A stretch of DNA of 64,000 nucleotides, from contig JAFGSZ010000086.1 in assembly GCA_016934395.1 (NCBI GenBank), positions 1 to 64,000 of the forward strand, given 5' to 3'. Under the pieces are notes generated by a model. That model worked only from the letters and a program-made list of their open reading frames with translations. It ran no database searches and was not told where the DNA came from. Source of the stretch: Bacteroidales bacterium. Its GTDB lineage: Bacteria; Bacteroidota; Bacteroidia; Bacteroidales; UBA10428. The position numbers and the translations under genes were made by a program. Shown piece after piece: positions 5,733 to 47,851 of this stretch; the first letter of the stretch is position 1, and each line of letters opens with the position of its first letter.

Positions 5733-5755
5733 AACTGCTTTTTTTCACAAATTAA

Positions 5756-11700: not shown

Positions 11701-14700
11701 AAGCTAATCCGCTTCCTGTAGCAGCAATGGCAAAACTGACATTATCACTGCTGCACGCTGAAATGTCAACAGGCTGTGCGGTAATTGTTGCCGACGGATT
11801 TACAGTTACAATAGCCAGGGTGCTGTTTTTTGTGCCACAGTTGCCGCTTACCTGGCAGGTATAACTTCCGGAATTAGCTTCAGTCGCATTTACAATAGTA
11901 AGACTTGCTGATGTTGCCCCTGAAATATTTCCTCCATTAGTAACTGTTACACCGTTCCTTTTCCAGGTATATAAAAGATTATCCCCATCGGCTGTAATGT
12001 TAAGCGCTATTGTTCCGCCCTCACACAAAGTCTGGTTTGCCGGCTGCAGTGTAATTACAGTATTTTTATAAGCAACCAGTGTGGCCGGATCACTGTTTAC
12101 GCTTCCGCACGTTCCGGTTACTACACATTTATACACTCCGTTATCTGTTGGGATTATGCCCGAAATACTCAACACATCTGATGTTGCTCCGGAAAGTGTA
12201 CCTCCATTACTGAGATTTGCCCCGTCTTTTTGCCATTGGTAAATTAATGAAGTTCCCGATGCCTGAACCGAAAGCATTGCCAGATCAGTTTCACATAAAG
12301 AAGCGCCCGCCGGTTGTGTGGTAATACCCGTATTTTTATTGACTGTGAGGATTGCCGGTGCACTGTTTTCACCATTTACCATACAGGTATAGGCGCCCAT
12401 ATCACTCACCGCTGCAGATCCTATTGTTAGTGTTGCGCTGGTTGATCCTGAAACATTTACGTTATCCGTAAGGTCTGCTCCGTCTTTTTTCCATTGATAA
12501 CTCAAACCGGAACCTGAAACAACTACCGAAAATCCGGCACTCTGACCCTGACATTTTGTTATACTGGCAGGTTGAGTGATAAAAATTGTTGTGGGATTTA
12601 CCGTTAGATTTCCCGGATTACTATTAGCCGTCCCACAAGTTCCGGTAACTATACAACGATATGCCCCCTCATCCGTTTCACTTACCCCGGTCAGTAACAA
12701 AATGGAGGTTGTGGAACCTGAAATTACCCCGCCATCCGACAGGTTGATCCCGTCTTTTTGCCACTGGTAGGTTAAACCATTCCCTTCAGCAAGAACAGAA
12801 AATTGTGCATCTCCTCCCGAAACAATAGTATAATGTGCAGGCTGCTGAGTTATAATTGTTGCAGGATTTACATTAAGGCTCGTTAAATTGCTGTTTTCCG
12901 TTCCGCAATCTGTATTTACCCTGCAGGTATAAATACCCAGATCGGAGGGTATAAGATTGTTGATTATTAAATTATCTGTAGTTGCTCCTGAGATATCACC
13001 GCCATCTGCCAGGTCTGTTCCGTTTTTTGTCCATTGAAATAATTTATTTGTCCCTGTGGCATTCACTTGCAGATCAAGATTATCCCCCTCGCACAAATTT
13101 ACATTTGCAGGTGGCTGAACAGTAATTAAAACTGCTTCATTCACCGTTAGTATTGCCCCAATGCTTGCTATAGTGTTACAATCGCCGGTTATTATACATG
13201 TATAAATTCCCGCATCTGTTGCATTAATATTGGTAAGTACTAATCCTGTACTAATTTCCCCGGCCATGTTCACACCATCTTTCTGCCATTGATAGCTCAG
13301 GTTTGTTCCTGTGGCTGCCACACTAAAATTTGCATTTTCACCAGGGCAGGCGGTCAGATTCTGAGGTTGGGCAGTAATCACCACATTTTTATTAACCACG
13401 AGGTTTGCCGGAGCGCTGTTTTCTGTTCCACACGAACCGGTAACTTCACAACTGTAAAGACCTGCATTACCGGCAACTGCAGGGTCGATGCTCAGGCTAT
13501 TTCCTGTTGATCCGGAAACAGCCCCGCCGTCGGATAAGTTTATTCCGTTGCGTTTCCATTGATATGTAAGGCCTGTGCCCGTTGCTGAAATCGTAAATCC
13601 GGCATTTTCTCCTTCACATATTACCGCACCCAGCGGTTGCTGGTTTATCGAAATATCCTGGTTCACCGTTAATTGTGCGCCATTGCTTATTAACGATCCG
13701 CAATCGCCAGAAACAATACATCTGTAAGTTCCTGCATTTGCTGCATTGACTGTATTTAAAATTAATCCTGAGTTCGTTTCACCAGCCAGATTGGCCCCGT
13801 TTTTTTGCCACTGATAAGTGAGATTCGCCCCCGAAGCTGTTACGCTGAATATTACATTCTCTCCCGGACAGGCTGTCTTATTCTGGGGATGTCCTGAAAT
13901 GCTTATATTTTCATTAACAATCAAATCCGCCGGATCACTGTTTATTATACCACAGGTTCCGGTAATTTCACATGTGTAAATTCCGGCATTCGCGGTAGCG
14001 GCGGGATTAATGGTAAGGTTATTCCCTGTTGCTCCGGTTATGGAACCTCCGGTGACCAGAGATACTCCGTTTTGTTTCCACTGATAAGAAAGGCCTGTTC
14101 CATTTGCAACAATTACAAAGCCGGCATTTTCTCCTGCGCAAATTTCCATATCTGCAGGCTGTGTTGTTACGGAAACATCAACATTCACAGTAAGCGATGC
14201 CCCATTGCTTATTACGGCCCCGCAATTCCCCGTTACAATACATCTGTATACACCGGCATCGGTAGCATCAATCCCGGGAATAATTAATCCCGGATTGGTT
14301 TCCCCGGCTATATTGGCTCCATCTTTTTGCCATTGATAGTTAAGTAAGGCGCCGGTTGCCGTTATATTGAAACTTGCATTTTCACCCGGACAAAGAGTTG
14401 AATTTACCGGATGTTGAGTAATAATAACCTTTTCATCAATAGTAAGGTTAGCCGGATCGCTGTTTATAATACCACAATCTCCCGATACCTCACAGGTGTA
14501 TACTGCAGCATCTGCTGTTGTTAATAATGATAAAACCAGGGTATTGCTTAACGCACCTGAAACATTACCTCCGTTTGCCAGATTGATTCCGTTTTTCCTC
14601 CACTGATAACTAAGATTTGATCCGATAGCCGTAACAATAAAAGATACATTACCACCTTCACAAACAGTTTTATTAACAGGCTGCGAAGTTATTGAAGTAT

Positions 14701-17700
14701 TTGTAATTAGGGTTAAATCGGCAACTTCACTGGTAACTGAACTACCGCATGAATTATCCAATACACAACGATAAGCTCCCACATTTGCAGCAACTATTGA
14801 ATTTAAGGACAAGGTTGGATTGGTTTCACCCGGAATATTCACTCCGTCTTTTTGCCATTGATAATTTAAATTAGATCCTGTGGCAACAACATCAAAACTG
14901 ACATTATCTCCTGCACAGGTTTGTAAATCCTGAGGCTGGTTAGTAATTACAATATTATCATCCACAAGCAACTCAGCAGGATCGCTGTTGAGTGATCCGC
15001 AGCTTCCGGAAACCACACAAAAATATGTGCCGTTTTCAGCTGAAGTTAGATTTGACAGGAAGAGTGTATTGCTCTGTGCTCCTGAAACAGTTGCCCCATT
15101 AGCAAGATTTACTCCATCTTTTTTCCATTGCCAGCTTAGATTTGTTCCGGTAGCTGTGATGCCAAAACTTACATTTTCGCCTTCACACTCTACTGCATCT
15201 GAAGGTGCCGATGTTATTATTGTAATATTATTAATAACCAGATCCACCATGTTGCTCGATAAGGTTGAACCGCACGAATTGCTAATAACACAATGGTATA
15301 TCCCTGCATCACCGGCAACTATGGAATTTAAACTCAAGCTTGAATTTATAGCTCCCGGAATATTTATTCCATCCTTTTGCCACTGATAGCTCAGGTTACT
15401 GCCTGTGGCTACCAGATTAAAATTAATGCTTTCTCCAACGCAGGCTTGTTTATCCTGAGGCTGAGTGGTTATAGTTATGGCATCATCCACAACCAGATTT
15501 GCCGGATTGCAGTTAAGTATACCGCAACTTCCGCTTACCTGGCAAATATAAGAACCGGCATCTGCAACTGCCAAACCTGTAATAATTAGTTTATTGGTAG
15601 TTGTCCCTGATAAACTTCCACCATCGATTAAATTTATTCCATTCTTTTTCCACTGATAAGTCAACCCTGTGCCTGCAGCCACAACGGTAAAACTTGTATT
15701 TGCACTCAAACATGCAATAACACCCGCAGGATGACTACTTATGACAGTAGTTAAATTTACTGTAAGAATTGCTGTGCTGCTTATAATTGATGCCCCGCAC
15801 GGACTGCTTACTACACAGCGGTAATTCCCTGCATCTCCGGCAGCTACTGAATTTATTACAAGGCTTTGAGTGTTTTCACCCGCGATATTAATCCCGTTTT
15901 TTTGCCATTGAAAAGATAAATTGGATCCCGTAGCTGTAACCGTAAAGCTTATATTGCTTCCCGGACAGGCCTGTTTATTGGTGGGTTGGCCTGTAATTAC
16001 AATCGATTCTTCAACACTAACAGTTGCCAGATCACTTTCAACAATTCCGCAGCTTCCTGAAACTTCGCAGGTATATACTCCATTATCTGCGGTTGTAGTA
16101 TTCAGAATTGAAAACAGATTAGAAGTTTCACCGGCAATATTAATCCCGTTTTTCTTCCACTGATAGGTGAGTCCTGATCCTGTGGCAGCAATGCCAAGAT
16201 TAAGATCTTCATTAAAACATAAATTTGCCCCAACCGGTTGTGTGGTAATAACCACCGGACTGTACAAAGAAAGGCCGGCGTTGTTACTTGTAAGCGGTCC
16301 GCCGCATGAACTTGAAACTATGCAGGTATATGTTGCCACATCCGCAGCTGTTACGCTGTTTATGTTTAGAACCGGATTTATAGCCCCTGCAATATTTACC
16401 CCGTTTTTCTGCCACTGAAAAGACAAATCCATTCCGGCAGCATTTACACTGAAGCTGGTATTTACGCCCGGACAAACACCTTTGCTCACGGGTTGTGTGG
16501 TAATTGATACCGGTGGATTCACAACAATAACAGCACTCCCCGTTCCCGTATTCACACAACCGTTGTTGTCTGTAATATCGAGTAAAGTATAATTAAGCGA
16601 TGAACCAGGAGAAACATTAGTAGTAAAATTATCCGTGGCATTTGCCGGAACATTAAAAGTTCCCACCCCATTTGTATAATTAAAATTATAGGGAGCAGTA
16701 CCCGTTAAATCTATATTTATTGGCGTTGGCGTACCTGAACAGATTGTAGCGTTTCCTGAAATAACCCCGGTAGGTAAAGGATTCACAATTATCGTCTGAA
16801 TATCTGAGAAATCAGAGCTGCAGGTACCATTTGCCAGTACTGCCCTGTAATCTGTATTTACCACTGGAGAAACAGTAATATCAGATAATGTTTGTCCTGC
16901 TATTGTGCTCCAGGTATTCAGCCCTGCAGGTGAAGATTGCCAGGAAATAGTACCCAGGTAACCCGAAAGTGTAATTATTGTGCTGTCTCCGGCGCAAATT
17001 AGTGCATCGGCAGTAGCCGTATTCCCGCCAACTGCATCCAAACAAGGATCTATTTGAGCAAAAAAGACGTTGTTTTGTCCATCATCGGGCAACGAGATCC
17101 CGTCAAAATCAATTAAATTTTCATAAAATCCGCAAACATACAATTTATCTGAAGAGTTTGATGAAATACCAAATCCATTATCGTTTCCGTTGCTGCCTGT
17201 ATTTTTTGCCCATATAAAATTGCCATCATTGGAAAAGGATACGATAAATATATCCTCACCGCCATTTGAAGATATTGTTGTTCCTGCAACATCCAGATCT
17301 CCCTTGAAAACACCGGTAACGAAGAGGTTGTCGTTGATATCAGCAGTTATAGCATAACCTACTTCATTACCTCCGTCGGTGCAGGGAAAAGATTTAACCC
17401 ATCCGGTCTTTCCATCCGATTTTGCATGAGAGGAAATAAACACATCTTTATTGCCGCTTGAGCTTAACGGGTTATTTGCATATGAAGGGAAATTAGCATT
17501 ATTCCCCATACCACCGGTTAAGTAAATGCTATCGCCCACCAAAGTCAGACTGTGTCCTACTTCATCAGTATTTCCCCCAATTCGTTGTATCCAGTTATAT
17601 GCCCCGTTTACTGTAAATGATAGTAAAACCATATCCGTACGGCCACTCTGGCTGTTTGTAGTGCTGGCAACCTGCGTATTTGAAGTATTAAAAACATCGA

Positions 17701-18502
17701 GATTATTTCCTTTAAAGGTGCCTAAAATAAAAACATTACTCCCATCTGTTGCCACAGCTTTGAAAAAATTATCCAATGTAAAATCCGAATTATTTACTTC
17801 GCCCCGAGCAGACCATAGTTCATTCCCGTTGACATCATATTTTAGAGCATAATACTGATTCCGAACCCCCAGATCCGGGATGGTTATAGTACCAAATGTT
17901 ATATTATCGTTATAATATCCAACAATATACACACCACTGTTGTCAGCAGCAATATCCAATCCTTCAGCATCTTTAGTACCTGTTGACTGGCGAACCCACA
18001 ACAATGCCCCGTCTGCGTTATATTTGGCGACAAATACATCGCGTGTATTATCGGTATTTGTAAGTGATGTGGTCCCTGTTAATGCAGATACACCTGTAAA
18101 TTGCGCTGTGTTATCTTCAAAATAACCTGTAATATAAATATTCCCTGAAGGATCAAGCGTTATAGCGTTAATCCTGTCTTCTCTATCACAACCTGTTTTA
18201 AAAGCCCAGATCAGATTGCCCAGATTATCATATTTGGCTAAAAATCCATCAGAATTTCCACCATATAGCGTGGTAAAATTTGTACTTGATGTACCTCCGG
18301 TGGGGAAAAAAGCACTTAAATCATCTTCGAAATAGCCTGCAATATAAATATTTCCTGTTACAGGATCCTCAACGATATCATAGGCCGATTCTTCCTGATT
18401 TGTATGAATAGAATTTGCCCAATTCCATGTGGGGGATTGGCCCTGTAGATTAAACAGAATGAAAAATAGAATTATAAATAGTACACCTGGCCTCTTTCTC
18501 AT
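5756..18502 (-). CDS. Giant T9SS type B repeat adhesin (Ig-like and gliding-associated C-terminal domain)
   Basis: 4,248 residues in one unbroken frame. Order: signal peptide (about 1-23); SBBP-type propeller repeats (about 24-488) with recurring GNIYITGYFEDD-like motifs; two short PKD/Ig-like modules (about 488-664); 23 Ig-like repeats (about 665-2684); one PKD-like domain (about 2685-2775); 15 repeats of a second family with an AGxDQ start and LRWTI core (about 2775-3980); two PKD domains (about 3981-4135) with NFGDGTS and MFGDGNTS; and the gliding-motility-associated C-terminal domain (about 4148-4248), starting FPNAFTPN and containing EIYNRWG. The last is the type B T9SS sorting signal. 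The protein is probably a very long surface fibre for adhesion or aggregation. PorP/SprF follows 23 bases downstream. It has no catalytic motif. Confidence 0.9.
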   Translation of the reverse strand: MRKRPGVLFIILFFILFNLQGQSPTWNWANSIHTNQEESAYDIVEDPVTGNIYIAGYFEDDLSAFFPTGGTSSTNFTTLYGGNSDGFLAKYDNLGNLIWAFKTGCDREDRINAITLDPSGNIYITGYFEDNTAQFTGVSALTGTTSLTNTDNTRDVFVAKYNADGALLWVRQSTGTKDAEGLDIAADNSGVYIVGYYNDNITFGTITIPDLGVRNQYYALKYDVNGNELWSARGEVNNSDFTLDNFFKAVATDGSNVFILGTFKGNNLDVFNTSNTQVASTTNSQSGRTDMVLLSFTVNGAYNWIQRIGGNTDEVGHSLTLVGDSIYLTGGMGNNANFPSYANNPLSSSGNKDVFISSHAKSDGKTGWVKSFPCTDGGNEVGYAITADINDNLFVTGVFKGDLDVAGTTISSNGGEDIFIVSFSNDGNFIWAKNTGSNGNDNGFGISSNSSDKLYVCGFYENLIDFDGISLPDDGQNNVFFAQIDPCLDAVGGNTATADALICAGDSTIITLSGYLGTISWQSSPAGLNTWSTIAGQTLSDITVSPVVNTDYRAVLANGTCSSDFSDIQTIIVNPLPTGVISGNATICSGTPTPINIDLTGTAPYNFNYTNGVGTFNVPANATDNFTTNVSPGSSLNYTLLDITDNNGCVNTGTGSAVIVVNPPVSITTQPVSKGVCPGVNTSFSVNAAGMDLSFQWQKNGVNIAGAINPVLNINSVTAADVATYTCIVSSSCGGPLTSNNAGLSLYSPVVITTQPVGANLCFNEDLNLGIAATGSGLTYQWKKNGINIAGETSNLFSILNTTTADNGVYTCEVSGSCGIVESDLATVSVEESIVITGQPTNKQACPGSNISFTVTATGSNLSFQWQKNGINIAGENTQSLVINSVAAGDAGNYRCVVSSPCGASIISSTAILTVNLTTVISSHPAGVIACLSANTSFTVVAAGTGLTYQWKKNGINLIDGGSLSGTTTNKLIITGLAVADAGSYICQVSGSCGILNCNPANLVVDDAITITTQPQDKQACVGESINFNLVATGSNLSYQWQKDGINIPGAINSSLSLNSIVAGDAGIYHCVISNSCGSTLSSNMVDLVINNITIITSAPSDAVECEGENVSFGITATGTNLSWQWKKDGVNLANGATVSGAQSNTLFLSNLTSAENGTYFCVVSGSCGSLNSDPAELLVDDNIVITNQPQDLQTCAGDNVSFDVVATGSNLNYQWQKDGVNIPGETNPTLSLNSIVAANVGAYRCVLDNSCGSSVTSEVADLTLITNTSITSQPVNKTVCEGGNVSFIVTAIGSNLSYQWRKNGINLANGGNVSGALSNTLVLSLLTTADAAVYTCEVSGDCGIINSDPANLTIDEKVIITQHPVNSTLCPGENASFNITATGALLNYQWQKDGANIAGETNPGLIIPGIDATDAGVYRCIVTGNCGAVISNGASLTVNVDVSVTTQPADMEICAGENAGFVIVANGTGLSYQWKQNGVSLVTGGSITGATGNNLTINPAATANAGIYTCEITGTCGIINSDPADLIVNENISISGHPQNKTACPGENVIFSVTASGANLTYQWQKNGANLAGETNSGLILNTVNAANAGTYRCIVSGDCGSLISNGAQLTVNQDISINQQPLGAVICEGENAGFTISATGTGLTYQWKRNGINLSDGGAVSGSTGNSLSIDPAVAGNAGLYSCEVTGSCGTENSAPANLVVNKNVVITAQPQNLTACPGENANFSVAATGTNLSYQWQKDGVNMAGEISTGLVLTNINATDAGIYTCIITGDCNTIASIGAILTVNEAVLITVQPPANVNLCEGDNLDLQVNATGTNKLFQWTKNGTDLADGGDISGATTDNLIINNLIPSDLGIYTCRVNTDCGTENSNLTSLNVNPATIITQQPAHYTIVSGGDAQFSVLAEGNGLTYQWQKDGINLSDGGVISGSTTSILLLTGVSETDEGAYRCIVTGTCGTANSNPGNLTVNPTTIFITQPASITKCQGQSAGFSVVVSGSGLSYQWKKDGADLTDNVNVSGSTSATLTIGSAAVSDMGAYTCMVNGENSAPAILTVNKNTGITTQPAGASLCETDLAMLSVQASGTSLIYQWQKDGANLSNGGTLSGATSDVLSISGIIPTDNGVYKCVVTGTCGSVNSDPATLVAYKNTVITLQPANQTLCEGGTIALNITADGDNLLYTWKRNGVTVTNGGNISGATSASLTIVNATEANSGSYTCQVSGNCGTKNSTLAIVTVNPSATITAQPVDISACSSDNVSFAIAATGSGLAYQWQKDGANISDGGTISGCLTDILSIAGTLPGDAGTYTCVVTGVCGSDNSDPAVLTSYQNTLITSQPVDKTVCEGTTSSFNVVASGDNLSYQWKKDGVILSNGGNLSGATSPNLIFSSVNLSDAGFYTCLVSGSCGNENSDLTELTVNSLTTISSHPAGDTRCSGDNISFIVLADGENLNYQWQKGGMNIADGGTISGATTPVLTINGILPVNAGAYSAVVSGSCGTLNSDPANLAVNSYVTITGQPSGDTICQGESTILAVTATGQGLSYQWKKEGVNLTDGGNISGSNTSTLQINNATTIEGGMYTCLVTGYCGNENSSPARLVVNKNTTIIDQPLDLSLCTGDMAVFKVTASGANLAYQWEKDGVSLSNGGNIFGVDNSILTVTGLTTSDAGTYRCVVTGTCNTVYSDPADLVINVYPNAAGLITGSASVCQGEQQVLYEVTSISNADSYVWTLPVGVNITSGGNSRLIEVSFALNESGGSISVYAENVCGAGPESPVLTVVANPIPIANADEDQNLCASTATLNGNDPGIANGLWAAVNGPAVIQNTTLYNSTVSDLRQGENKFTWTVTENGCSAIDTVVINNNLTTIDAGGNLTICAGNIDLQATPVPVGAFGSWSVVSGSASFADGTNPATNASGFSSGINKLKWTVSKSGCINTDSVTINYQMPTIAYAGIDQSLCKDSTILAGNGPSIGTGQWTIITGSAFIQNPASYNSQIKNLGKGDNILRWTISNGICSSIDEVTISNNKVNVNAGIDKVICDRTTTLGATAPSAGTGTWSVINGSGLFVNINAPDSKVTGLSQGINTLQWMVNHNSCLSYDTVTITNDLPTVADAGDDQVLTVDYTTLQGNIPTIGAGSWVLISGSAVIADASLYNTNVSALNYGENTFRWTIAHNSCISADDVIITNFTPNTTNAGEDQTLCVNYTILEGNEPLYGFGEWSVIQGAATFEDNSQFDTKVTSLAPGDNILRWTVWENGYTFDDVVITNNAPSMANAGSDQTMCADSAMLAANNPIIGAGVWTVVGGSATFADSSLFNSKVISLAKGENFLKWTINYKGCILSDIVKITNNLPTLAQAGEDQVVCTNYATLLPNTPTVGAGNWSVISGSGTFTGNDVTRLASGDNILRWTISNNSCSSYDELIITNNKPSTANAGADKVICYDSLTLAANNPVIGTGKWTIQSGSLTFADDTQGNTKVTNIGKDLNVLRWTISYNGCVSFDEVTVNNALDEALTGTDQVLCATSTILEANNPEMGTGSWSIIGGSGSAVFENPNQPDTRVTGLSKGNNILRWTIENEICVSTSDVIITNNLPTQPFAGPDQTLCADLATLQANTPEVGTGEWTILSGSGVLANPAIANSTITNLNTGVNLLRWTIRNLGCVLSDEVLINNNATVASMAGEDQVLCSDSTTLYGNVPSNGLTNWVVVRGSATFEDNSYFNTSVTNLGQGDNVLRWVITDGNCSSSDEVIITNNTPTKAVAGSDQAICGDGTGLHANIPVVGQGNWSIISGAGSFADSNNYNTVVSGLNAGDNRLRWTITNNGCSFFDDVIIRNNLPFVADAGPDIEVCSEAVDIYANNPLGGSGQWSVISGTALFTDATNYNTKASGLGFGANTLRWTLNFGECSSSDEIIITNNQTEIYAGIDQTVGESSTILAANNPTIGSGIWSVIGGSGSFSETNNFITEVSGLGSGLNTFRWAITINGCISYDDVSVIYNVPPIASFVANKYAGCPPLEVYFVNNSLDELPFTWNFGDGTSSSEVTVKHTYSEPGEYMASLTVTGNAGEIVTSDTVIVVHELPQASFDIYPEKIYLPDQKVNLVNTSVNAEAYLWMFGDGNTSEEMHPSHQYSVEGAYDISLYAWTEHMCFDSVTRYSAVIAEESGGITFPNAFTPNLGGPSDGSYSASDFSNDVFHPVGEGVEEYHLEIYNRWGILLFESFDLAVGWDGYYKGEIIEKGVYVWKVSGKFNNGKPFEKMGTVMLLH
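6563..10180 (-). repeat. Coding repeat array B: 15 units of about 80 residues
   Basis: Fifteen tandem units within the adhesin share the pattern AGxDQxxC, then an ANxP turn, WxxxSGS, a GxNxLRWT core, a C before SxDxV, and a closing ITNN. Each unit normally has one Cys near the start and one near the end. Units 5 and 15 lack the first and unit 6 lacks the second. Units are diverged rather than identical, so the array is old. Confidence 0.85.
10450..16511 (-). repeat. Coding repeat array A: 23 Ig-like units of about 84-90 residues
   Basis: Each unit has an ITxQP start, a C-x-G-E/D turn, a YQWxK(D/N)G strand, a D-x-G-x-Y-x-C strand and an SGxCG turn. Units alternate: odd units read QWQK (QWEK in unit 23) and even units QWKK or a variant (QWRK, QWKQ, QWKR, QWTK, TWKR). 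The two-unit period runs through the whole array. Units 1-3 and odd units 5-13 have a short GxNIAGE-type loop; even units from 4, and all units from 14 on, have a longer DGGxxSG loop. Confidence 0.85.
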
Positions 18503-21994: not shown

Positions 21995-22963
21995 ATGGAA
22001 AACATTTTGATTATTGGAGCTGCCGGCCAGATTGGTTCGGAAATTACACTCGAATTACGAAAAATATATGGCGACAGTCATGTGTTTGCCACCGATATTA
22101 AAAATGCCCCGGCCGATATTCGCGATGGCGGGCCCTTTCAGTTATTGGATGTGATGGATGATAAACGCCTGATCCATTTTGTAATTCGCCACAAGATTAC
22201 CCAGATATACCATTTTGCTGCCGTACTTTCAGGGAATGCTGAAAAATTGCCCGTTCAGGCATGGAAGATCAATATGGACAGCCTGATGAACATCCTCGAA
22301 GTAGCCAAACTCGTGGAAGAAATTCATAAAGTTTTCTGGCCCAGCTCCATTGCCGTATTTGGGGAAAGCACACCCAAAACATTTGCCCCGCAGGTTACCG
22401 TTATGGAACCTTCTACGGTTTACGGAATCAGTAAACTGGCCGGTGAACGCTGGTGTGAATATTACTTTAAAAAATTCGGAGTGGATGTTCGGAGTATTCG
22501 GTATCCGGGCCTTATCAGCTATAAAACCGAGCCGGGCGGCGGAACCACCGACTGGGCTGTTGAAATTTATTACGATGCAGTAAGAAAAGAAAACTACACC
22601 TGTTTTTTAAAAGAAGATACTACCCTGCCCATGATGTTTATGCCCGATGCTATTAAAGCCACCATAAACCTTATGGAAGTTGAGCGGTCGCGTTTGAAAT
22701 TACATTCAGCCTATAATATTGCAGGCCCCAGTATGTGCCCGAAGGAAGTCGCAAAAGATATCCGAAGGCATATACCCAATTTTAAAATACAGTATGAACC
22801 CGATTTCAGGCAGGAAATTGCAGAAACCTGGCCTGAAAGTATAGACGACAGTCTTGCCAGGACCAACGACGACTGGAAGCCGGAATATGATCTGACTCGA
22901 ATAACAGATATTATGCTGAAGGAAATTCGGGAAAAAATAAACAATTCTGCTCAGGGCAAATGA
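21995..22963 (+). CDS. SDR-type L-threonine 3-dehydrogenase
   Basis: 322 residues, one extended-SDR domain. Rossmann loop IIGAAGQIGSE at about 5-15; catalytic Tyr143 and Lys147 in YGISK; then the stretch RYPGLISYKTEPGGGTTDWA and TLPMMFMPDA, characteristic of the GalE-like threonine dehydrogenases (not the zinc MDR type). It oxidises L-threonine with NAD+ to 2-amino-3-oxobutyrate, which the kbl product at 26441 cleaves to glycine and acetyl-CoA. The gene is divergent from gltX. A sugar epimerase is the alternative, but the motifs and kbl favour threonine. Confidence 0.85.
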   Translation: MENILIIGAAGQIGSEITLELRKIYGDSHVFATDIKNAPADIRDGGPFQLLDVMDDKRLIHFVIRHKITQIYHFAAVLSGNAEKLPVQAWKINMDSLMNILEVAKLVEEIHKVFWPSSIAVFGESTPKTFAPQVTVMEPSTVYGISKLAGERWCEYYFKKFGVDVRSIRYPGLISYKTEPGGGTTDWAVEIYYDAVRKENYTCFLKEDTTLPMMFMPDAIKATINLMEVERSRLKLHSAYNIAGPSMCPKEVAKDIRRHIPNFKIQYEPDFRQEIAETWPESIDDSLARTNDDWKPEYDLTRITDIMLKEIREKINNSAQGK

Positions 22964-23037
22964 TTTTCAGACCAATTGAATAGCAGAAATTAAAAAATAG
23001 TAAAATCCCTGAATAATTGAGTATCAGATATTATTCT

Positions 23038-23886
23038 TTAAATGGGGTTTATCGAAGAAATAATATCCAGAATTTGTTTATACATATCTCCTCTTTTTTG
23101 CTGTCTTTTATAATCGGCAAGCTCTTTGGCCTTATCCATACCTCCGAGATAATACCGCTGATACCATGGTAGTATGCTAAATGCAGCATCCAGAAAAGTG
23201 TATTTATAAGCAATGTAAACACCAAGAGCTAACAGGGATTCCGTTAAGATAAATGAGTTCAGGCCTTCTTTAATATTTCCGCCATAAAACTGTCCAATCC
23301 CAGGCAATATAAGGCTTAATGTGGAAGCCCGGTTCGGGTTGGGTTTCATGTAGAGTTTACGGATAGTGAATAATGAATCGATTTTTGCCACGGTTGACGG
23401 AGAATCTTCCACCACCCTGATAAAATGATTTTTTGATTTGTCAAAGTCTTCGAGCCCGAAATAACATATTGCAAACAAAAGATTAATTTCATCGGTGTAG
23501 GACTGAAAGGTTGTATCACTTAAGTTATAAAGTTCAATAAGGGCGTAGCTGTAATTTTTTTCAGCAATCAGGGCCGATATTTTATTAAATACGGCAATTG
23601 ATTTTATGTCTGGGTTATCTGAAAGAAAAAATGCCCTGTCATAAAAACTTTTTGCTTTATTGTGGTCACCGGCTTTATAATAGCAGTCGCCAAGTTTTAG
23701 CAATATTCCGGGATTTATCGTATCGGTAAAATACATTACCCGCTGATATTCTTTTATCGCCAGTTCATATTGCCCTGATAATGTTGATTGATCTGCAAAA
23801 TCAATGGCATTTTGAAGAGTATACTGCCCTTTCAGAAGTAAAATATTAATACTTATCAATAAAATAGTCGCCAGCTTTCTTAACAT
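23038..23886 (-). CDS. Exported TPR protein with C-terminal membrane module (paralogue of upstream gene)
   Basis: 282 residues. A signal peptide (about 1-20) precedes TPR-like helices (about 25-175; for example GDCYYKAGDHNKAKSFYDRA). A C-terminal hydrophobic module (about 190-250) starts LILPGIGQFYGGNIKEGLNSF. The same arrangement and PGxGxFYxGxxKxGLxSF motif occur in the gene just upstream, so the two are diverged tandem duplicates. Last gene of the YidD-like cassette, overlapping the previous gene by 41 bases. A scaffold or assembly role in the envelope is plausible but unproven. The C-terminus resembles DUF5683/TM2-like segments. Confidence 0.6.
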   Translation of the reverse strand: MLRKLATILLISINILLLKGQYTLQNAIDFADQSTLSGQYELAIKEYQRVMYFTDTINPGILLKLGDCYYKAGDHNKAKSFYDRAFFLSDNPDIKSIAVFNKISALIAEKNYSYALIELYNLSDTTFQSYTDEINLLFAICYFGLEDFDKSKNHFIRVVEDSPSTVAKIDSLFTIRKLYMKPNPNRASTLSLILPGIGQFYGGNIKEGLNSFILTESLLALGVYIAYKYTFLDAAFSILPWYQRYYLGGMDKAKELADYKRQQKRGDMYKQILDIISSINPI

Positions 23887-24667
23887 AAGCGTCTTGCAGA
23901 TTTGTATTATATAACTTTGCCGATTTTACCGACCCAAATATATTCCCAACATAAAAACCAAAAGAGATACCACCAAGTACCCAGCCATAAACACTATCTG
24001 TACCTTTCTTATTAAATCCCCGGTATGCCTGGTAGCTGGTTAATCCAACAAATAAAAATGAAACCAGGCCGTCTTTCCAGCGTCCTGTATAAAATTTTCC
24101 GGCACCGGGTATTACGGTTGAAAAAGCTCCGGCCGCAAAAGGACTTTTATATCTTATATCTGAAATTTCTGCCGATAACTGAATTAAACCTGCATTATAT
24201 CCAGAATCGTTTTTTTCAGGAAGATTATCCCAGTTTTTTGTAATTAAATTATAAGTAAGTGTTATATCCGGTTTATATATATTTTCATTGTTGAGTGTTT
24301 GAAGGAGTGAATAAATGCTGTCTGCATATCCTCCAAGAATATTTAATTTAACATACTCTATAAGAAAAATATCACCCATATTGTTATCTTCCGACACAAA
24401 AAGCTTATATGTTTTAAGTCCCTGAAGGTAGTCTCCGGAATTCCGGTAGGATAGTAATAATTCTTTTTTATAATTTATATTTTGCGGATTCAAAAAAATT
24501 AAACGTTCATATTCCTGTGCTGCAAACTTATATTGTTTGGTGTTTAACAAATATTTTGCAAATGATTCTGTGTTTTCTGTATTTAATAAATTCATCTCCT
24601 GGCTGAATCCGCAGAAAGCAGTCAGAATAAAAAAAATAAATAAATATAATTTAAGGTACCGGATCAT
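23846..24667 (-). CDS. Exported TPR protein with C-terminal membrane module
   Basis: 273 residues. Signal peptide (about 1-22, ending GFSQ); TPR-like helices (about 30-160; YKFAAQEYERLIFLNPQ is a clear unit); and a hydrophobic C-terminal module with TVIPGAGKFYTGRWKDGLVSF at about 185-205, then two predicted membrane segments with a GWVLGGISFGFYVGN stretch. Start overlaps the end of the YidD-like gene by 17 bases, and the end overlaps the next gene by 41 bases, so the set is translationally coupled. Function unknown. The shared architecture with its neighbour suggests a hetero-oligomer. Confidence 0.6.
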   Translation of the reverse strand: MIRYLKLYLFIFFILTAFCGFSQEMNLLNTENTESFAKYLLNTKQYKFAAQEYERLIFLNPQNINYKKELLLSYRNSGDYLQGLKTYKLFVSEDNNMGDIFLIEYVKLNILGGYADSIYSLLQTLNNENIYKPDITLTYNLITKNWDNLPEKNDSGYNAGLIQLSAEISDIRYKSPFAAGAFSTVIPGAGKFYTGRWKDGLVSFLFVGLTSYQAYRGFNKKGTDSVYGWVLGGISFGFYVGNIFGSVKSAKLYNTNLQDAYVKKAGDYFIDKY

Positions 24668-25046
24668 ATAATTTTTTCGTTTCAGGGTCTACAGGGTAAT
24701 ATTCCGCTGCCATACCATGACATCGGGTCATTCTGTCGAAGGCATTTAACGCGCCTTTTAACATTCCATATTTTTTTACGGATTCAATGGCATAAACCGA
24801 GCAGGATGGATGGAAAACACAGGCATTAATATCCTGCGATGAGATAAAGTGTTTATAAAATAAAAAAAGTGAAGAAACCACCTGCCTGATTTCATTTTCA
24901 TTGTTAGCATAATTCAAAAAATTTTCTCTGTGTTCAGACACATCAAACTGATGGTAATGTTTCTCAACAATAAATTTCTGACCAAATAAATGAGAACTAA
25001 TAAGAATGGATAAGATCAGTGTACCGAATATAGCTTTCAGGAACAT
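24651..25046 (-). CDS. Exported YidD-like protein
   Basis: 131 residues, longer than the roughly 70-85 of ordinary YidD. A signal peptide-like start (about 1-23, ending HLFGQ) and a linker precede the YidD domain (about 55-131): LFLFYKHFIS, then CVFHPSCSVYA (Cys76, Cys82), KKYGMLKGAL, DRMTRCHG (Cys109), and the closing YDPVP. Ordinary YidD is a small protein on the cytoplasmic side that helps YidC insert membrane proteins. The signal peptide and a short insert before YDPVP suggest this copy acts outside the inner membrane. It overlaps both neighbours (50 and 17 bases). It is unlikely to be the housekeeping yidD, which normally sits with rnpA/yidC. Confidence 0.7.
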   Translation of the reverse strand: MFLKAIFGTLILSILISSHLFGQKFIVEKHYHQFDVSEHRENFLNYANNENEIRQVVSSLFLFYKHFISSQDINACVFHPSCSVYAIESVKKYGMLKGALNAFDRMTRCHGMAAEYYPVDPETKKLYDPVP

Positions 25047-25674
25047 CGTTTATAGTTATATTTTTATAGGTGGTCACCTGAATAATTTCTTTGTTGTTAA
25101 CATAAGCAATTTCAATAACCTTTGACGGGAAAGATAATCCCATGGAATTCACGTATTCTTCAAAAAATTGTTTTTTGATTACGTTCTCCAGGTTGTCAAA
25201 AAATACAATTCCAAACAGCTGTTTATTTTTTGTGGAAAGCAATATTTTGCCAAAATTTTTCTTGAAATTTTTATCGGGTATCCAGGTAGAAATAACCAGG
25301 TCATCTTCTTTGTCAACATTTTCAAGTTTATAAATGCTTCCTTCAAGACCATAATTTGAAAGTTGCTGGTTAAGCGCCAAATGATATATTGAAAAATGTG
25401 TTAAGTCAGGAATAGTTGTTCTTGATTCAACTTTTCCATTATTAATCTGAAACAGGTTTGTATCGGCAGTTACATATACTTCTTTTTCAGGAAAAGAATT
25501 TTCATGAACTATATATTGATCATTGATATTATAATAGAACCTTCCAACAATCAACTGACTGGCACCATCGCTTTTATTCTTTACCGTATATTCACCCCCG
25601 ATACTATAGAAGTTCTGGCTGCTGGCAACGTTGCATATTATAAAAAAGAATAAAAGTACGGTTACTTTTTTCAT
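24997..25674 (-). CDS. Secreted hypothetical protein, possibly LolA-like
   Basis: 225 residues with a signal peptide (about 1-19, ending ASSQ). The rest alternates short beta strands, with GRFYYNINDQYIV, DTNLFQINNGK and a late TTYKNITIND. This order of strands resembles LolA/LolB-like periplasmic lipid or lipoprotein carriers, but no diagnostic motif proves it. It overlaps the start of the YidD-like gene by 50 bases, a long overlap that argues for tight coupling. If the LolA-like reading holds, the cassette would join a periplasmic carrier to a YidD-like insertion factor. Confidence 0.5.
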   Translation of the reverse strand: MKKVTVLLFFFIICNVASSQNFYSIGGEYTVKNKSDGASQLIVGRFYYNINDQYIVHENSFPEKEVYVTADTNLFQINNGKVESRTTIPDLTHFSIYHLALNQQLSNYGLEGSIYKLENVDKEDDLVISTWIPDKNFKKNFGKILLSTKNKQLFGIVFFDNLENVIKKQFFEEYVNSMGLSFPSKVIEIAYVNNKEIIQVTTYKNITINDVPESYIRYTDLIHSY

Positions 25675-25771
25675 TAATAAAAAATTTTGATGGATTAACC
25701 CGAGCTAAAATAAATATTGCTCCCAAAGGGGAGCAATATTATTAAAATTTCTTGAATATTAAAAAGTGCTA

Positions 25772-26212
25772 TTAATACCAGGCCACGGAATTCCAGGCAA
25801 CAAAATAAAGCACTACATATACGGCAGTATAGGCCAGTGTACCTACAACACAACCTTTAAATGCTTTTGTGGTTTCTTCTTTATCATCAGCAACAAAGTA
25901 TACTATTGCCACACCGGCAATACCAAATACGCAACCCCAGATAAATGAAGAAATTCCCAAGGGTGGTTCACCCATCATGGAATTATAAAAACCGGTAGGT
26001 ATTAAATTCATCTCATTTACGAGTGTATTTTCCTGATTTTGTAAATCTGTCAGAGTAATTGTCGGATTTGCAATAACAAAGTCTTCTAACATTTGTAAAC
26101 TGGCAAGTTCATCGGTAACCTTTGCCTTATCATAACTGAAAAGGTCTGCATTGCCCGCCATTAATGTGCCTGTAAATACAACACTAACAATTAAAAGTAA
26201 TATTTTCTTCAT
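25772..26212 (-). CDS. Small exported membrane protein, first gene of the YidD-like cassette
   Basis: 146 residues from the ATG at 26212; the frame can be extended 19 codons upstream, but the start MKKILLLIVSVVF gives a proper signal peptide ending LMAG. A soluble helical stretch (about 20-75) is followed by two membrane segments: SSFIWGCVFGIAGVAIVYFV and the C-terminal VVGTLAYTAVYVVLYFVAW. It lies 97 bases before the secreted LolA-like gene in the same direction and probably leads the operon. I do not recognise the family. Confidence 0.5.
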   Translation of the reverse strand: MKKILLLIVSVVFTGTLMAGNADLFSYDKAKVTDELASLQMLEDFVIANPTITLTDLQNQENTLVNEMNLIPTGFYNSMMGEPPLGISSFIWGCVFGIAGVAIVYFVADDKEETTKAFKGCVVGTLAYTAVYVVLYFVAWNSVAWY

Positions 26213-26440
26213 ATAGGTAAGATTAAGGTTAATTAACATCAAATATAAAAATATATTTTTATATTTCAAGTAACTATGGAGTTTTGAGTATTTTTTTATG
26301 CTATTTCATTAAATTTTGAACAAAATAGACTGATTATTCAGGGACACCCCGATTATTTTAATCTAATAACAATTTGCGATAAAAATCATTTACAGTTGAT
26401 ACCTTATCTATTAACTTTAGGGTGAATTAAAATCGGAATT

Positions 26441-27628
26441 ATGTACGGATCGATTAAAAACCACCTCCAACTGGAGCTGCAGAACATCAAAAATTCGGGT
26501 CTTTATAAAACTGAACGTATTATTACCTCTCCGCAACAGGCTAAAATAACCCTGGACAGCGGCGCTGAAGTGTTAAATTTTTGCGCCAACAATTACCTGG
26601 GATTGTCGGCCCACCCTGCCCTTATCAATGCGGCAAAATCGGCCCTCGATACTCACGGTTTCGGAATGTCTTCGGTACGGTTTATTTGTGGTACCACAGA
26701 TCTTCATAAAACCCTTGAGAAAAAAATTGCCGCCTATTTCGGAACGGAAGATACCATCTTATATGCGGCTTGTTTTGATGCCAATGGCGGAATTTTTGAA
26801 CCTCTGCTTTCTGAAGAAGATGCCATAATCTCCGACTCATTAAACCATGCATCAATAATCGACGGGGTCCGTCTGTGCAAAGCCCAGCGCTACCGGTATG
26901 CCAATGCCGACATGAACGATCTGGAAGTACAATTAAAAAAAGCAGGCGCCCAGCGTTTTAAAATTATTGTTACCGATGGTGTGTTTTCTATGGATGGCAA
27001 TGTAGCGCCTGTAGATAAGATCTGTGAACTTGCAGAAAAATACGATGCCCTGGTTATGGTGGATGAATGCCACTCTGCCGGAGTGGTAGGCGATACCGGA
27101 AGAGGTGTTACTGAACTTTACAATATACGGGGAAAAGTAGATATTATAACCGGTACCCTGGGCAAAGCATTTGGCGGCGCTATTGGTGGTTTTACCACCG
27201 GACGAAAAGAAATTATCGAAATGCTACGCCAGCGGTCGAGACCTTACCTGTTCTCAAATTCATTACCTCCTATGATCGCTCAGGCCGGGATCGAAATGTT
27301 TGATATGATGGATAAGACGAATGAACTGCAAGATCAATTGCATAAAAATACCAACTATTTTAAAGAGAAAATAAAGACTGCTGGTTTTGATATTAAACCT
27401 ACCCAATCGGCCATTGTGGCTATTATGCTTTACGATGCCAAACTTTCGCAGGAATTTGCCTCCCGCCTGCTCAATGAGGGAATTTATGTGATCGGATTTT
27501 ATTATCCTGTAGTACCCCAGGGCCAGGCCCGGATACGGGTTCAGCTGTCTGCCGCCCATACTCAGGAACATCTGGACAAGGCCATTCAGGCTTTTGTTAA
27601 AATCGGAAAAGAACTGAAGGTTATTTAA
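26441..27628 (+). CDS. kbl: Glycine C-acetyltransferase (2-amino-3-ketobutyrate CoA ligase)
   Basis: 395 residues, the normal length. PLP-dependent alpha-oxoamine synthase: NFCANNYLGLS start, MVDECHSAG with the cofactor-binding Asp and His, and TGTLGKAFGGAIGG with the Schiff-base Lys242. It cleaves 2-amino-3-oxobutyrate with CoA to glycine and acetyl-CoA, completing threonine breakdown begun by the dehydrogenase at 21995. The two genes point the same way, but a minus-strand five-gene cassette lies between them. A BioF-type synthase is possible by family, but length and context fit kbl. Confidence 0.93.
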   Translation: MYGSIKNHLQLELQNIKNSGLYKTERIITSPQQAKITLDSGAEVLNFCANNYLGLSAHPALINAAKSALDTHGFGMSSVRFICGTTDLHKTLEKKIAAYFGTEDTILYAACFDANGGIFEPLLSEEDAIISDSLNHASIIDGVRLCKAQRYRYANADMNDLEVQLKKAGAQRFKIIVTDGVFSMDGNVAPVDKICELAEKYDALVMVDECHSAGVVGDTGRGVTELYNIRGKVDIITGTLGKAFGGAIGGFTTGRKEIIEMLRQRSRPYLFSNSLPPMIAQAGIEMFDMMDKTNELQDQLHKNTNYFKEKIKTAGFDIKPTQSAIVAIMLYDAKLSQEFASRLLNEGIYVIGFYYPVVPQGQARIRVQLSAAHTQEHLDKAIQAFVKIGKELKVI

Positions 27629-27694: not shown

Positions 27695-27793
27695 ACATGC
27701 CAAGTTTTTATCCCGCACAAGTTTTTAAAATCTGTGGTGTCAAACAAACAACTGATTTAATTCTTTTCTAACTTTAGTGGGATATTTTTGAAC

Positions 27794-28375
27794 ATGACGG
27801 ACAACGAATTAATACTTCAACTTAAACAAAAAAACCACGAAGCGTTTAAGATTCTTGTCAATACTTACCAAAAATTAGTTATTAATACCTGTAATGGTTT
27901 GTTACTAAATTATGAAGATTCTCAGGATGTTGCACAGGAAGTTTTTATTGAAGCTTACAAATCCATTCATAATTTCAGAAACGAATCGAAGATTTCAACC
28001 TGGCTGTATCGTATTGCCATTAATAAATCACTAAATTTTATCCGAAGTAAAAAAATCAGCAAGTGGGTTTCCCGGCTTGAATCGCTGGCAACACTAAAAG
28101 GATCGGACCTGAGTTCCATTGCAGGTAACAGCAGTGATGAACCACAAAGCAATATTGAAGATGAACAGCGAAAACAGATACTGCACAGGGCCCTGGAGGC
28201 ACTACCGGAAAACCAGCGAATAGCATTTACTTTAAATAAATACGAGGATTTATCTTATAAAGAAATTTCAGAAGTGATGAATATCTCGGTATCAGCCATT
28301 GAGTCGCTTTTATTCAGGGCGAAAAAGAACCTGCAGGAACGGCTAATCCGGTACTATAAAAATAATACGCTTTAA
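27794..28375 (+). CDS. ECF-family RNA polymerase sigma factor
   Basis: 193 residues from ATG 27794; a TTG two codons earlier is less likely. Region 2 is clear (YQKLVINTCNGLLLNYEDSQ split around the core-binding helix, then DVAQEVFIEAY and FRNESKISTWLYRIAINKS), and region 4 has the helix-turn-helix YEDLSYKEISEVMNISVSA. No extra C-terminal domain. A TATTTTTG box at 27783-27790 lies so close to the ATG that the leader would be almost absent. The gene is followed by an anti-sigma gene and two Spy/CpxP-like genes, which suggests an envelope-stress or metal-response unit that controls itself. Confidence 0.9.
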   Translation: MTDNELILQLKQKNHEAFKILVNTYQKLVINTCNGLLLNYEDSQDVAQEVFIEAYKSIHNFRNESKISTWLYRIAINKSLNFIRSKKISKWVSRLESLATLKGSDLSSIAGNSSDEPQSNIEDEQRKQILHRALEALPENQRIAFTLNKYEDLSYKEISEVMNISVSAIESLLFRAKKNLQERLIRYYKNNTL

Positions 28376-28424
28376 AACGCAAGTTTTAATTTTAATATGT
28401 GTCTTACCAACAAACAGATATAAA

Positions 28425-28871
28425 ATGAATTGCAAAACTACTGAAAAGAAACTGCTTTTTTATCTGGAGAATAATTTGCCTGAAAGTTTAATGCCTGAGG
28501 TAAAAGAACATTTACATAACTGTTCGCATTGTACTCATTTGCTTCATCAGCTTGAACGTTCAATGCAAATAATTGAAAATGAAAAAAATAATCCGGTAAA
28601 TCCTTTCTTTTTTACACGGGTGGAACAAAAACTGAATGAAAGTACAATTGAAAAAATTAAATCACCTGCTTTTGTCCGCATAACAGTGAATTCGCTTGTT
28701 TTTGCTGTGGTTATTGTTATCGGACTCTTTGTAGGGATAAACCTGGGGGTGCCTTCCGGAGAAGTGCTTAATACTAAGGCAAACAGGAATATTCAGAATT
28801 TATCTGAAAGTTACTATTTTAGTGATATCGATCTGGAATATATCGAATCGGCTTTGGCATCTCAAGAATAG
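28425..28871 (+). CDS. Membrane anti-sigma factor with ZAS zinc motif
   Basis: 148 residues. The cytoplasmic N-terminus carries the HxxxCxxC motif (His29, Cys33, Cys36) of zinc-associated anti-sigma domains. One membrane helix lies at about 82-105 (VNSLVFAVVIVIGLFVGINL). The C-terminal part, about 40 residues, would be periplasmic. It lies 49 bases after the ECF sigma gene and very likely holds that sigma factor inactive until a signal arrives from outside. Confidence 0.82.
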   Translation: MNCKTTEKKLLFYLENNLPESLMPEVKEHLHNCSHCTHLLHQLERSMQIIENEKNNPVNPFFFTRVEQKLNESTIEKIKSPAFVRITVNSLVFAVVIVIGLFVGINLGVPSGEVLNTKANRNIQNLSESYYFSDIDLEYIESALASQE

Positions 28872-28879
28872 GGGGAATT

Positions 28880-29443
28880 ATGAATTATTTTACAAAAAAA
28901 AGGTTGATTATTCTGGGCATTGTTTTGCTGGTTGTTCTCAATCTATCTTCTTTGGCAACCATTCTTTACCATAACAGGGTTGGCAAGGTAGCGGTTACCC
29001 TGAACCAGGATGATGAAATATTATACAATAACCTGAATCATTTTCTTCAAAAAGAACTTAGTTTAACCGATGAACAATTTTTATCAGTAGAAAATCTGCG
29101 TCGTGAACATTTTATCCGCACAAAAGAAATAATCGTTCAATTAAATGATAAACGCGATGAAATGCTGGTTGAATTCCGAAAGGAAAAACCCAACCACCGT
29201 AAACTAAATAACCTTGCCGGTGAGATTGGCAATTTACACCGCGATCTTAAAATAGAAGCCATCGACCATTTTTTAAATTTGAAAAAATTATGTACTCCTG
29301 AACAACAGGAAAAACTAAATATCCTTTTTGAAAAAATACAACGCTTCGAAGATCGTAAAGGGAAAAGCGGTCATCATCGTAAAGGTCCGAATCACAGAAA
29401 AAAAATGAATGAAAATATCCCTGATCAGGAAAATTCAAATTAA
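28880..29443 (+). CDS. Membrane-anchored Spy/CpxP-like (CnrX-type) periplasmic sensor or chaperone
   Basis: 187 residues. One N-terminal membrane helix (about 9-28), then a long helical domain with LSLTDEQF near residue 55 and LCTPEQQEKLN near 138, the LTxxQ-like repeats of the Spy/CpxP/CnrX group. The C-terminus is rich in His, Lys and Arg (HHRKGPNHRKKM) and may bind metal. It starts eight bases after the anti-sigma gene. By analogy with CnrX it may hold or signal to the anti-sigma factor. The role is inferred from fold type and position. Confidence 0.72.
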   Translation: MNYFTKKRLIILGIVLLVVLNLSSLATILYHNRVGKVAVTLNQDDEILYNNLNHFLQKELSLTDEQFLSVENLRREHFIRTKEIIVQLNDKRDEMLVEFRKEKPNHRKLNNLAGEIGNLHRDLKIEAIDHFLNLKKLCTPEQQEKLNILFEKIQRFEDRKGKSGHHRKGPNHRKKMNENIPDQENSN

Positions 29444-29472
29444 AAGTAAAAGTAATGTTAAAATGTAAAATT

Positions 29473-30003
29473 ATGAAAACACAAAATAGAGTTTTATTAA
29501 AAATAAGTTTGGTCACCCTGTTATTGGGTGCATTTCTATGGATTAGTGCCCAACCGGGACCGGGCCGTGGTGCAGGCTGGACTGATCAGTGCCGCATGCT
29601 TCCGGATCTTACTGAGGAACAACAGGTGCAACTAAACGATCTCAGAATTGCGCATTTAAAAGAGATGGCTCCCTTGCGCAACCAGCTTAATGAAAAAAAA
29701 GCACATCTGCAAACTTTAAGCACAGTGGAAAATCCCGACATGAAATCCATAAATAAGACAATTGATGAAATGGGAAGTATTAAAACACAGATGATGAAGA
29801 ACAGGGCAGCTCACCAGCAGCAAGTTCGCAACCTTTTAAACGATGAGCAGAAACTGGTTTTTGATTCCCGAAAACACGGACCGGATTTCAGAACATATTG
29901 CGATGGATACGGACGCGGAAAACATCAGGGAAGAGGTCAGGGAAACGGCCCGGGTAATGGGCAAGGATACGGCCGGGGTTTTGGACCAGGAAACGTGAAT
30001 TAA
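29473..30003 (+). CDS. Spy/CpxP family periplasmic protein with Gly/Arg-rich tail
   Basis: 176 residues from ATG 29473; an ATG six codons earlier is possible. Signal peptide about 1-25 (ending WISAQ). LPDLTEEQQVQLNDLR and LLNDEQKLVFDSR are the two LTxxQ-like motifs of the Spy/CpxP fold, a cradle-shaped ATP-independent chaperone. The last 35 or so residues are Gly, Arg, Gln and Asn-rich (GRGKHQGRGQGNGPGNGQG), a low-complexity tail not usual for Spy. Last gene of the ECF operon, ended by a strong hairpin. Confidence 0.78.
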   Translation: MKTQNRVLLKISLVTLLLGAFLWISAQPGPGRGAGWTDQCRMLPDLTEEQQVQLNDLRIAHLKEMAPLRNQLNEKKAHLQTLSTVENPDMKSINKTIDEMGSIKTQMMKNRAAHQQQVRNLLNDEQKLVFDSRKHGPDFRTYCDGYGRGKHQGRGQGNGPGNGQGYGRGFGPGNVN

Positions 30004-47039: not shown

Positions 47040-47636
47040 ATGTCTTTTGAATTACCAAAATTAGATTACAGCTATAATGCACTGGAGCCATATATTGATG
47101 CGCGTACCATGGAAATCCATTATACAAAACATCATGCTGCGTATACAAGTAAATTAAACGATGCTGTTAATGGAACAGCTCTTGAAGGCAAAACCATTTT
47201 TGAATTATTCCGGTCGGTTTCCTCTTTGAGCCCTGCCATTAGAAATAACGGAGGCGGATTTTATAACCACAGTCTTTTCTGGAAGGTTTTATCACCAAAT
47301 GGCGGAGCGCCTAAAGGAGATTTACTAAGTGCAATAAATACTTCATTTGGTTCGTTTGATAAGTTTAAAGCCGAATTTTCAAATGCTGCTGCTACCCGGT
47401 TTGGTTCGGGATGGGCATGGCTGGTAAAAACAGGCAACGGACTGGTTGTTTCGTCAACTCCAAATCAGGATAATCCATTAATGGATGTTGCCGAAGTTAA
47501 AGGAACTCCGATATTAGGCCTTGATGTTTGGGAGCATGCTTATTATTTAAATTACCAGAATCGCAGGCCGGATTATATAGAAGCTTTCTGGAATATTGTA
47601 AACTGGGAAGAAGTATCAAAACGGTTTATTAGTTAA
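47040..47636 (+). CDS. Superoxide dismutase, Mn-type
   Basis: 198 residues, standard Fe/Mn-SOD fold. Metal ligands His27, His77, Asp162 and His166 are all present. The outer-sphere residue that tells the metals apart points to Mn: Gly73 at the Fe-type Gln position and Gln143 (NQDNPL) at the Mn-type position. No signal peptide, so cytoplasmic. A terminator follows, and a second SOD gene lies 215 bases on. Confidence 0.9.
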
Positions 47637-47665
47637 CAATCACTTTTTTCACGCTTATTATTTTT

Positions 47666-47693
47666 AAAAACCCGTTTAATAGCGGGTTTTTTT
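47666..47693 (+). terminator. Rho-independent terminator of the Mn-type SOD gene
   Basis: A 9-bp perfect stem (47666-47674 with 47683-47691), an 8-nt loop and a T run from 47687 to 47693. It separates the two SOD genes into independent units. Confidence 0.75.
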
Positions 47694-47851
47694 GGTTACA
47701 TGGAAATCGATACTATCCTGTGTTTAATTACATTTTATTAGATATACTATTTTAACTTAGATCCGGAAATCCTTTTAATTTAACTGTTTTATTCTTCCGT
47801 TATTTAGAATTTATTTGTAATTTAAACAAGAAAATTCTAAATCATACAATC

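Follow-up and report, generated by a model that had tools for sequence, protein, structure and literature searches.

An exported YidD paralogue in a conserved gene cassette of Bacteroidota, probably a machine for building the cell envelope

Background

What would a YidD domain do outside the cytoplasm? The question is raised by a five-gene cassette in the genome of a Bacteroidales bacterium (assembly GCA_016934395.1, 4.53 Mb in 155 contigs), of which positions 1 to 64,000 of contig JAFGSZ010000086.1, hereafter the window, were analyzed. The cassette encodes, in order, a small membrane protein (G1), a LolA-like protein, a YidD paralogue with a predicted signal peptide (exported YidD), and two related proteins, TPRa and TPRb. 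Annotations everywhere describe YidD as a helper of YidC on the cytoplasmic side, and the exported paralogue receives the identical name from automatic pipelines. That an exported form is conserved, and keeps fixed partners, suggests recruitment of the YidD fold to the periplasmic side, and the cassette, which points to an envelope system common to much of Bacteroidota and beyond, offers a direct way of asking what the YidD domain does. Known superfamilies account for every part. The lineage of exported YidD and its operon are apparently undescribed, the system as a whole may be new, and the genes probably specify a machine, not described before, that builds the cell envelope. No description of an exported-YidD operon was found in the open-access literature searched on YidD and Bacteroidetes, TPR operons and TM2, nor is the operon mentioned in two papers on Bacteroidota Lol proteins (PMC11885536, PMC13103446).

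A YidD paralogue with an export signal

The 131-residue YidD-like protein of the window matches PF01809 with 65.6 bits (cut-off 27) and TIGR00278 with 53.5 bits (cut-off 40), both over residues 55-114. Its N-terminus, MFLKAIFGTLILSILISSHLFG followed by QKF, is a predicted signal peptide. It is placed outside the YidD domain, adds to the N-terminal helix which the domain itself retains, and leaves a glutamine at +1. In the alignment of 75 exported-YidD homologues this residue (Q23) is near-invariant and preceded by a hydrophobic core. Glutamine at +1 is typical of most signal peptidase I substrates in Bacteroidota (the Q-rule; PMC5837995, PMC10653852), and the rule holds for other members of the cassette, the glutamine being near-invariant in TPRa and, as Q20, invariant in the first alignment of LolA-like proteins. 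Counting glutamines after a hydrophobic core does not by itself separate exported from canonical YidD, because canonical proteins often have YQ within the domain; the argument is therefore based on the aligned, near-invariant position. The signal peptide assigned to this protein in the original prediction, made from the window alone, is supported by its place outside the domain and by the +1 glutamine, and we infer export and cleavage by signal peptidase.

Canonical YidD proteins are about 70-110 residues long and carry no extra export signal, whereas the exported form adds a signal peptide and a linker and is near-neutral in charge. The first cysteine of the domain is found at median residue 80 in exported and 31 in canonical YidD, and the median net charge is +1 versus +8 (Mann-Whitney p=4.5e-23), loss of the basic charge being expected once the domain stops facing the cytoplasm. 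The canonical signature ISPL...CR-PTCS...RILRC-PWG is replaced by ISSQD...C-F-PSCS...DR-TRCNG. Common to both forms are the domain (PF01809/TIGR00278), the C-x5-C-S core, conserved glycines and usually the third cysteine. C76, C82 and S83 are invariant in the 75 exported members, C109 is conserved in at least 90%, and the third cysteine is missing in some. When 144 YidD domains were placed in a tree, one change of state sufficed for the exported form, which falls on one side of a single branch, with moderate support (SH-aLRT 75 on 80 columns). No sequence relative of exported YidD was found in the Protein Data Bank (PDB).

Search of the whole genome with PF01809 retrieved, besides the exported form (67 bits), a canonical YidD of 89 aa (107 bits, contig G000:C118), 34% identical to the exported one over 65 residues. 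A separate short yidD near rnpA/yidC, which was to be looked for, is thus present in the genome but does not sit beside these genes, its neighbours being a 6-pyruvoyl-tetrahydropterin-synthase-like gene and a ZnuA-like gene. Canonical copies scoring near 100 bits occur in 37 of 39 relatives; a subset of the 39 has an extra YidD copy of 55-67 bits, mostly in frames of 130-180 aa, or of 386-392 aa if fused. Canonical YidD of E. coli belongs to the rpmH-rnpA-yidD-yidC neighbourhood; the exported form adjoins instead the LolA-like gene and TPRa. That exported YidD is a diverged paralogue working outside the cytoplasm is well supported by these sequence features.

Gene order and distribution

Profiles of five families (A1-A5) were applied to all fetched loci. 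A single-sequence scan of genome contigs with the YidD of the window returned nothing, and an alignment was used successfully as query. The order G1, LolA-like, exported YidD, TPRa, TPRb was found in 33 loci, the same order lacking G1 in 14, and exported YidD, TPRa and TPRb in another 14, some of the reduced arrangements ending at the edge of the sequence stretch; 74 other YidD matches have no cassette neighbour. Among 296 Bacteroidota genomes, evenly sampled, TPRa (at least 90 bits) was detected in 31, and in all 31 an exported YidD is directly adjacent or fused to it. Fusions join TPRb to YidD in locus L043 (386 aa), and YidD to TPRa in L045 (386 aa) and L199 (about 400 aa), and make a physical tie of the YidD domain to the TPR pair. 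The association of exported YidD with TPRa and TPRb, judged from invariable adjacency and gene fusion, is well supported.

The LolA-like and exported YidD genes overlap in 56/60 loci (median 41 nt), TPRa and TPRb in 61/68 (median 35 nt), start codons being set by rule in both counts; because they are conserved across loci, the overlaps are not due to chance. Carriers include Emticicia, Lacihabitans, Cyclobacterium, Jiulongibacter, Marinoscillum and Mariniphaga, many metagenome-assembled genomes of Bacteroidales, Chitinophagales, Saprospirales and Flavobacteriales, and two Chlorobiota. Reduced forms reach Poribacteria, Spirochaetota and Fidelibacterota, and exported YidD alone was met in one Planctomycetota record. 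The gene order, to be sought across Bacteroidota, proved to be conserved there in dozens of loci, and in some loci of Chlorobiota. With the signal peptide supported, a separate yidD in the genome and a conserved order, neither of the objections foreseen for the original prediction (lack of a signal peptide; lack of another yidD, with a cytoplasmic role for homologues having the same N-terminus) was therefore encountered. Comparison of the loci shows genes that are passed on together, around a fixed core of exported YidD, TPRa and TPRb. The genes almost certainly make up an exported, conserved set whose members function together.

An additional exported helical protein is encoded in 13 loci, usually directly behind TPRb. 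Two exported-YidD cassettes of different subtypes lie close together in each of L106, L115 and L132, exported TM2 proteins taking the place of G1 in some. A defence system was considered and rejected, as PADLOC gave no match at E<=0.01. A mobile element was rejected as well: TPRa has no phage match, and the 13 YidD matches on plasmids, all below 60% identity, are not of the cassette type, those named by gene being ordinary yidD.

The LolA-like and TPR partners

The LolA-like protein was modeled by AF2 with a pLDDT of 95.8 as a half-barrel of the LolA type. Foldseek returned 95 matches at E<=0.001, among the matches listed mostly proteins of the LolA/LolB/RseB type, the best PDB matches being 3buu (E 4.4e-11) and P. 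gingivalis LolA3 (9tp6, E 8.1e-10); the family profile matches 3buu with E 0.0014. The window protein has no Pfam match, and its NCBIfam LolA-like match (E 0.098) is below cut-off. It had been called LolA-like from the start, rightly so by fold, although family sequence models miss it. A half-barrel fold of the lipid-binding type is well supported by the model. The protein shares with the LolA/LolB superfamily the secreted half-barrel, and differs in being only about 12% identical in sequence, in having no LolB partner, and in residing within an exported-YidD operon.

In both TPRa and TPRb a signal peptide precedes TPR-type repeats, and the C-terminal region resembles TM2 and DUF5683 proteins. 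TPRb scores 36.7 bits against Pfam TPR (cut-off 27). TPRa alone stays below the Pfam TPR cut-offs, and owes its TPR assignment to TPRb, to which it is homologous over the full length (hhalign 99.8%). The description of both as exported TPR proteins holds accordingly for TPRb on its own score, and for TPRa by homology only. The C-terminal regions have in common with TM2 domain and DUF5683 proteins a helical hairpin of the G-G-x-Y-x-G type. They are set apart by marginal hydrophobicity, by linkage to exported TPR domains, and by scores below cut-off: TM2 (PF05154) scores 15.8 in TPRa against 27.9, and no window protein exceeds the cut-off, which is exceeded in some relatives. Most G1 proteins likewise are not TM2 proteins by Pfam, yet a true TM2-domain protein fills the gene-1 slot of L038. 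Exported TM2 proteins, made up by a signal peptide and a TM2 hairpin, recur beside cassettes, sometimes in tandem (L201:3447-3899, L106:9115-9522).

G1 and the hairpin behind it

G1 has a signal peptide, an exported part of about 60 residues (E-F-L-LE-YV-N-G-TL) and a hairpin of two transmembrane (TM) segments that is strongly conserved (LGIPSF-WGC...DK-ETKKALWGC). Of 64 copies, 52 have two TM segments behind the signal peptide, in agreement with the two-helix membrane protein placed first in the set by the original prediction. The start codon is taken as ATG at 26209, the alternative TTG at 26269 being graded less likely. G1 is found mainly in cassette-bearing genomes, as 1-3 tandem copies. 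Homology of G1 to the C-terminal region of TPRa and TPRb was considered and is not detectable (hhalign about 2%). Tandem Fe/Mn superoxide dismutase genes lie elsewhere in the window (47040-48427), and a relative, G011, has two extra G1 genes between its two superoxide dismutase genes (L216:3691-6240).

A hairpin with a 12-bp stem and a T-run follows G1 in the window. Taken singly it is not above chance for the region, as two hairpins were found and 2.6 are expected. Across loci, a hairpin with a T-run follows the last G1 in 28/45 cases, against about 3% in shuffles, and is found at 6/211 junctions after the LolA-like, exported YidD or TPRa genes (Fisher p=5e-20). In 11 alignable hairpins 98.6% of cells pair, double changes are seen at 9 of 14 pairs, and no slid register comes near the pairing of the aligned hairpin. 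Rfam gave no family for this element. The best reading of the hairpin is that of a conserved attenuator or terminator, by which G1 would be raised above the downstream genes. Its position suggests an excess of G1, as the product or cargo of the set, over the other proteins, which would be the machinery; the layout may be likened to that of operons in which a structural subunit or cargo is encoded ahead of its assembly factors.

Proposed function and alternatives

The reading preferred here, to which a probability of roughly 0.4 is given, is that the cassette encodes a dedicated periplasm-facing system handling small helical-hairpin membrane proteins. The TPRa/TPRb pair, with its TM2-like membrane regions, would be a membrane-associated scaffold that positions exported YidD at the periplasmic face, and the LolA-fold carrier would shield hydrophobic segments or lipid. 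G1, or in other genomes TM2-domain proteins of like layout, would be received by the scaffold after Sec export, and helped by it to insert into an envelope membrane or to assemble there into oligomers. Most transcripts would stop at the hairpin behind G1, yielding an excess of G1 and less machinery. The proposal resembles the YidC-YidD insertion pathway in that a YidD helper is found beside small hairpin proteins requiring membrane insertion, and differs from it because the cassette has no insertase and the YidD domain would face the other side of the inner membrane. A narrower version, in which exported YidD on a TPR/TM2 scaffold and a LolA-type carrier insert alpha-helical hairpin proteins either into the outer membrane or, from outside, into the inner one, is unlikely; insertion or assembly of helical hairpin proteins from outside would, if true, be a new route of membrane protein biogenesis. 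The earlier description of the cassette as an outer-layer insertion or assembly apparatus fits, the membrane served, the substrate and any insertion role of YidD being presumptive.

Several observations weigh against a hairpin-handling system. Families f34 and f52 have exported YidD, TPRa and TPRb only, with no recognised G1 or LolA-like gene nearby. As the core occurs in some families with no recognised G1, G1 is not a universal substrate, and the idea that every such system includes G1 was given up. In genome G038, G1 and a LolA-like gene are retained (L214:1732-2895), and no TPRa was found. The YidD of E. coli reportedly works with YidC on the cytoplasmic side (Yu and colleagues, 2011), and YidD is not known to have a periplasmic partner. 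The model of exported YidD has no fold match in the PDB, and no YidD structure is known. The G038 arrangement indicates that the G1/LolA-like pair can exist apart from the core.

The clear LolA-superfamily fold calls to mind a module for lipid or lipoprotein trafficking, in which the LolA-fold protein would carry an acylated molecule, exported YidD and the TPR/TM2 proteins would dock it, and G1 would be an inner-membrane anchor or scaffold. Specialised LolA paralogues do exist in Bacteroidota, LolA2/LolB2 being located in the flexirubin operon of F. johnsoniae (PMC11885536) and P. gingivalis LolA3 not pairing with LolB (PMC13103446). Yet LolB, LolCDE, acyltransferase and lipobox proteins are all absent from the conserved genes, biosynthetic genes do not recur next to the cassette, and the LolA-like gene is missing from many cassettes, so that this explanation is possible, if on the whole doubtful. 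Rather unlikely is a role of exported YidD as a structural subunit of a TPRa/TPRb complex, with no part in insertion and some other envelope task, such as sensing or cell-wall scaffolding. The fusions, the minimal YidD-TPRa-TPRb set standing alone in many genomes, and the loss of the canonical ISPl...CR signature, and in some members of the third cysteine, would suit such a subunit; exported YidD keeps the C-x5-C-S core and the glycines, however, and usually also the third cysteine, and G1 and TM2-type hairpin proteins are recurrent beside the cassette.

G1 could also be a secreted membrane-active product, a pore-forming or antagonistic hairpin peptide which the other genes export or against which they protect the producer. 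The hairpin proteins are small, multi-copy and, as predicted, separately expressed, and PF01809 was once named a haemolytic domain. This is quite improbable, since no exporter, protease or immunity-type gene accompanies G1, the hairpin is strongly conserved, unlike arms-race peptides, and the PADLOC, phage and plasmid searches described above give no support. Hardly credible is a reading of the YidD-like protein as an ordinary cytoplasmic-face factor with a longer start, whose hydrophobic N-terminal stretch would be no signal peptide. Canonical YidD likewise begins with a hydrophobic amphipathic segment, but the stretch in question is external to the domain, which has a helix of its own besides, and it is followed by a near-invariant +1 glutamine; the basic charge is lost, YidD is fused behind an exported TPRb in L043, and the genome has a separate canonical yidD.

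Cassette layout and neighbouring genes

The features of the cassette are collected in Table 1. The open reading frames bear out the five consecutive minus-strand genes of the original prediction, and the overlaps claimed among the last four, 50, 17 and 41 nt, are exact. Export signals on all five products are well supported by sequence analysis.

Table 1. Features of the cassette in the window (23038-26212)
Feature	Position	Strand	Description
G1	25772..26209	-	Predicted signal peptide, exported helical part of ~60 aa, 2-TM hairpin (PPLGI-SF-WGC...KGC)
Hairpin	25705..25740	-	Terminator-like, between G1 and LolA-like genes; stem 25740-25713, then TATTTT; covarying in relatives
LolA-like	24997..25674	-	Predicted secreted protein of LolA-superfamily fold, 225 aa, signal peptide, Q at +1
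Exported YidD	24651..25046	-	YidD paralogue, 131 aa; predicted signal peptide 1-22, linker, YidD domain 55-114
TPRa	23846..24667	-	Predicted exported; helical repeats, C-terminal TM2-like region (PGAGKFYTGRWKDG)
TPRb	23038..23886	-	Predicted exported; TPR repeats, C-terminal TM2/DUF5683-like region (PGIGQFYGGNIKEG); TPRa paralogue

A sub-threshold match to a CRISPR repeat at 22983-23007, found in the Rfam scan, was taken as chance. The cassette is flanked by a threonine-dehydrogenase-like epimerase gene (21995-22963) and by kbl, encoding 2-amino-3-ketobutyrate CoA ligase (26441-27628). Both genes flank the cassette also in L034, and one or both are nearby in L039, L042 and L120. Near the cassette, at 27788-30003, genes for an ECF sigma factor, a zinc-finger anti-sigma factor and two Spy/CpxP-like proteins stand in a row, by eye a cluster of the envelope-stress type. 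At 4716-18502 a 4248-aa protein with Ig-like repeats is followed by a PorP/SprF-like gene, a pair which by eye looks typical of type IX secretion adhesins.

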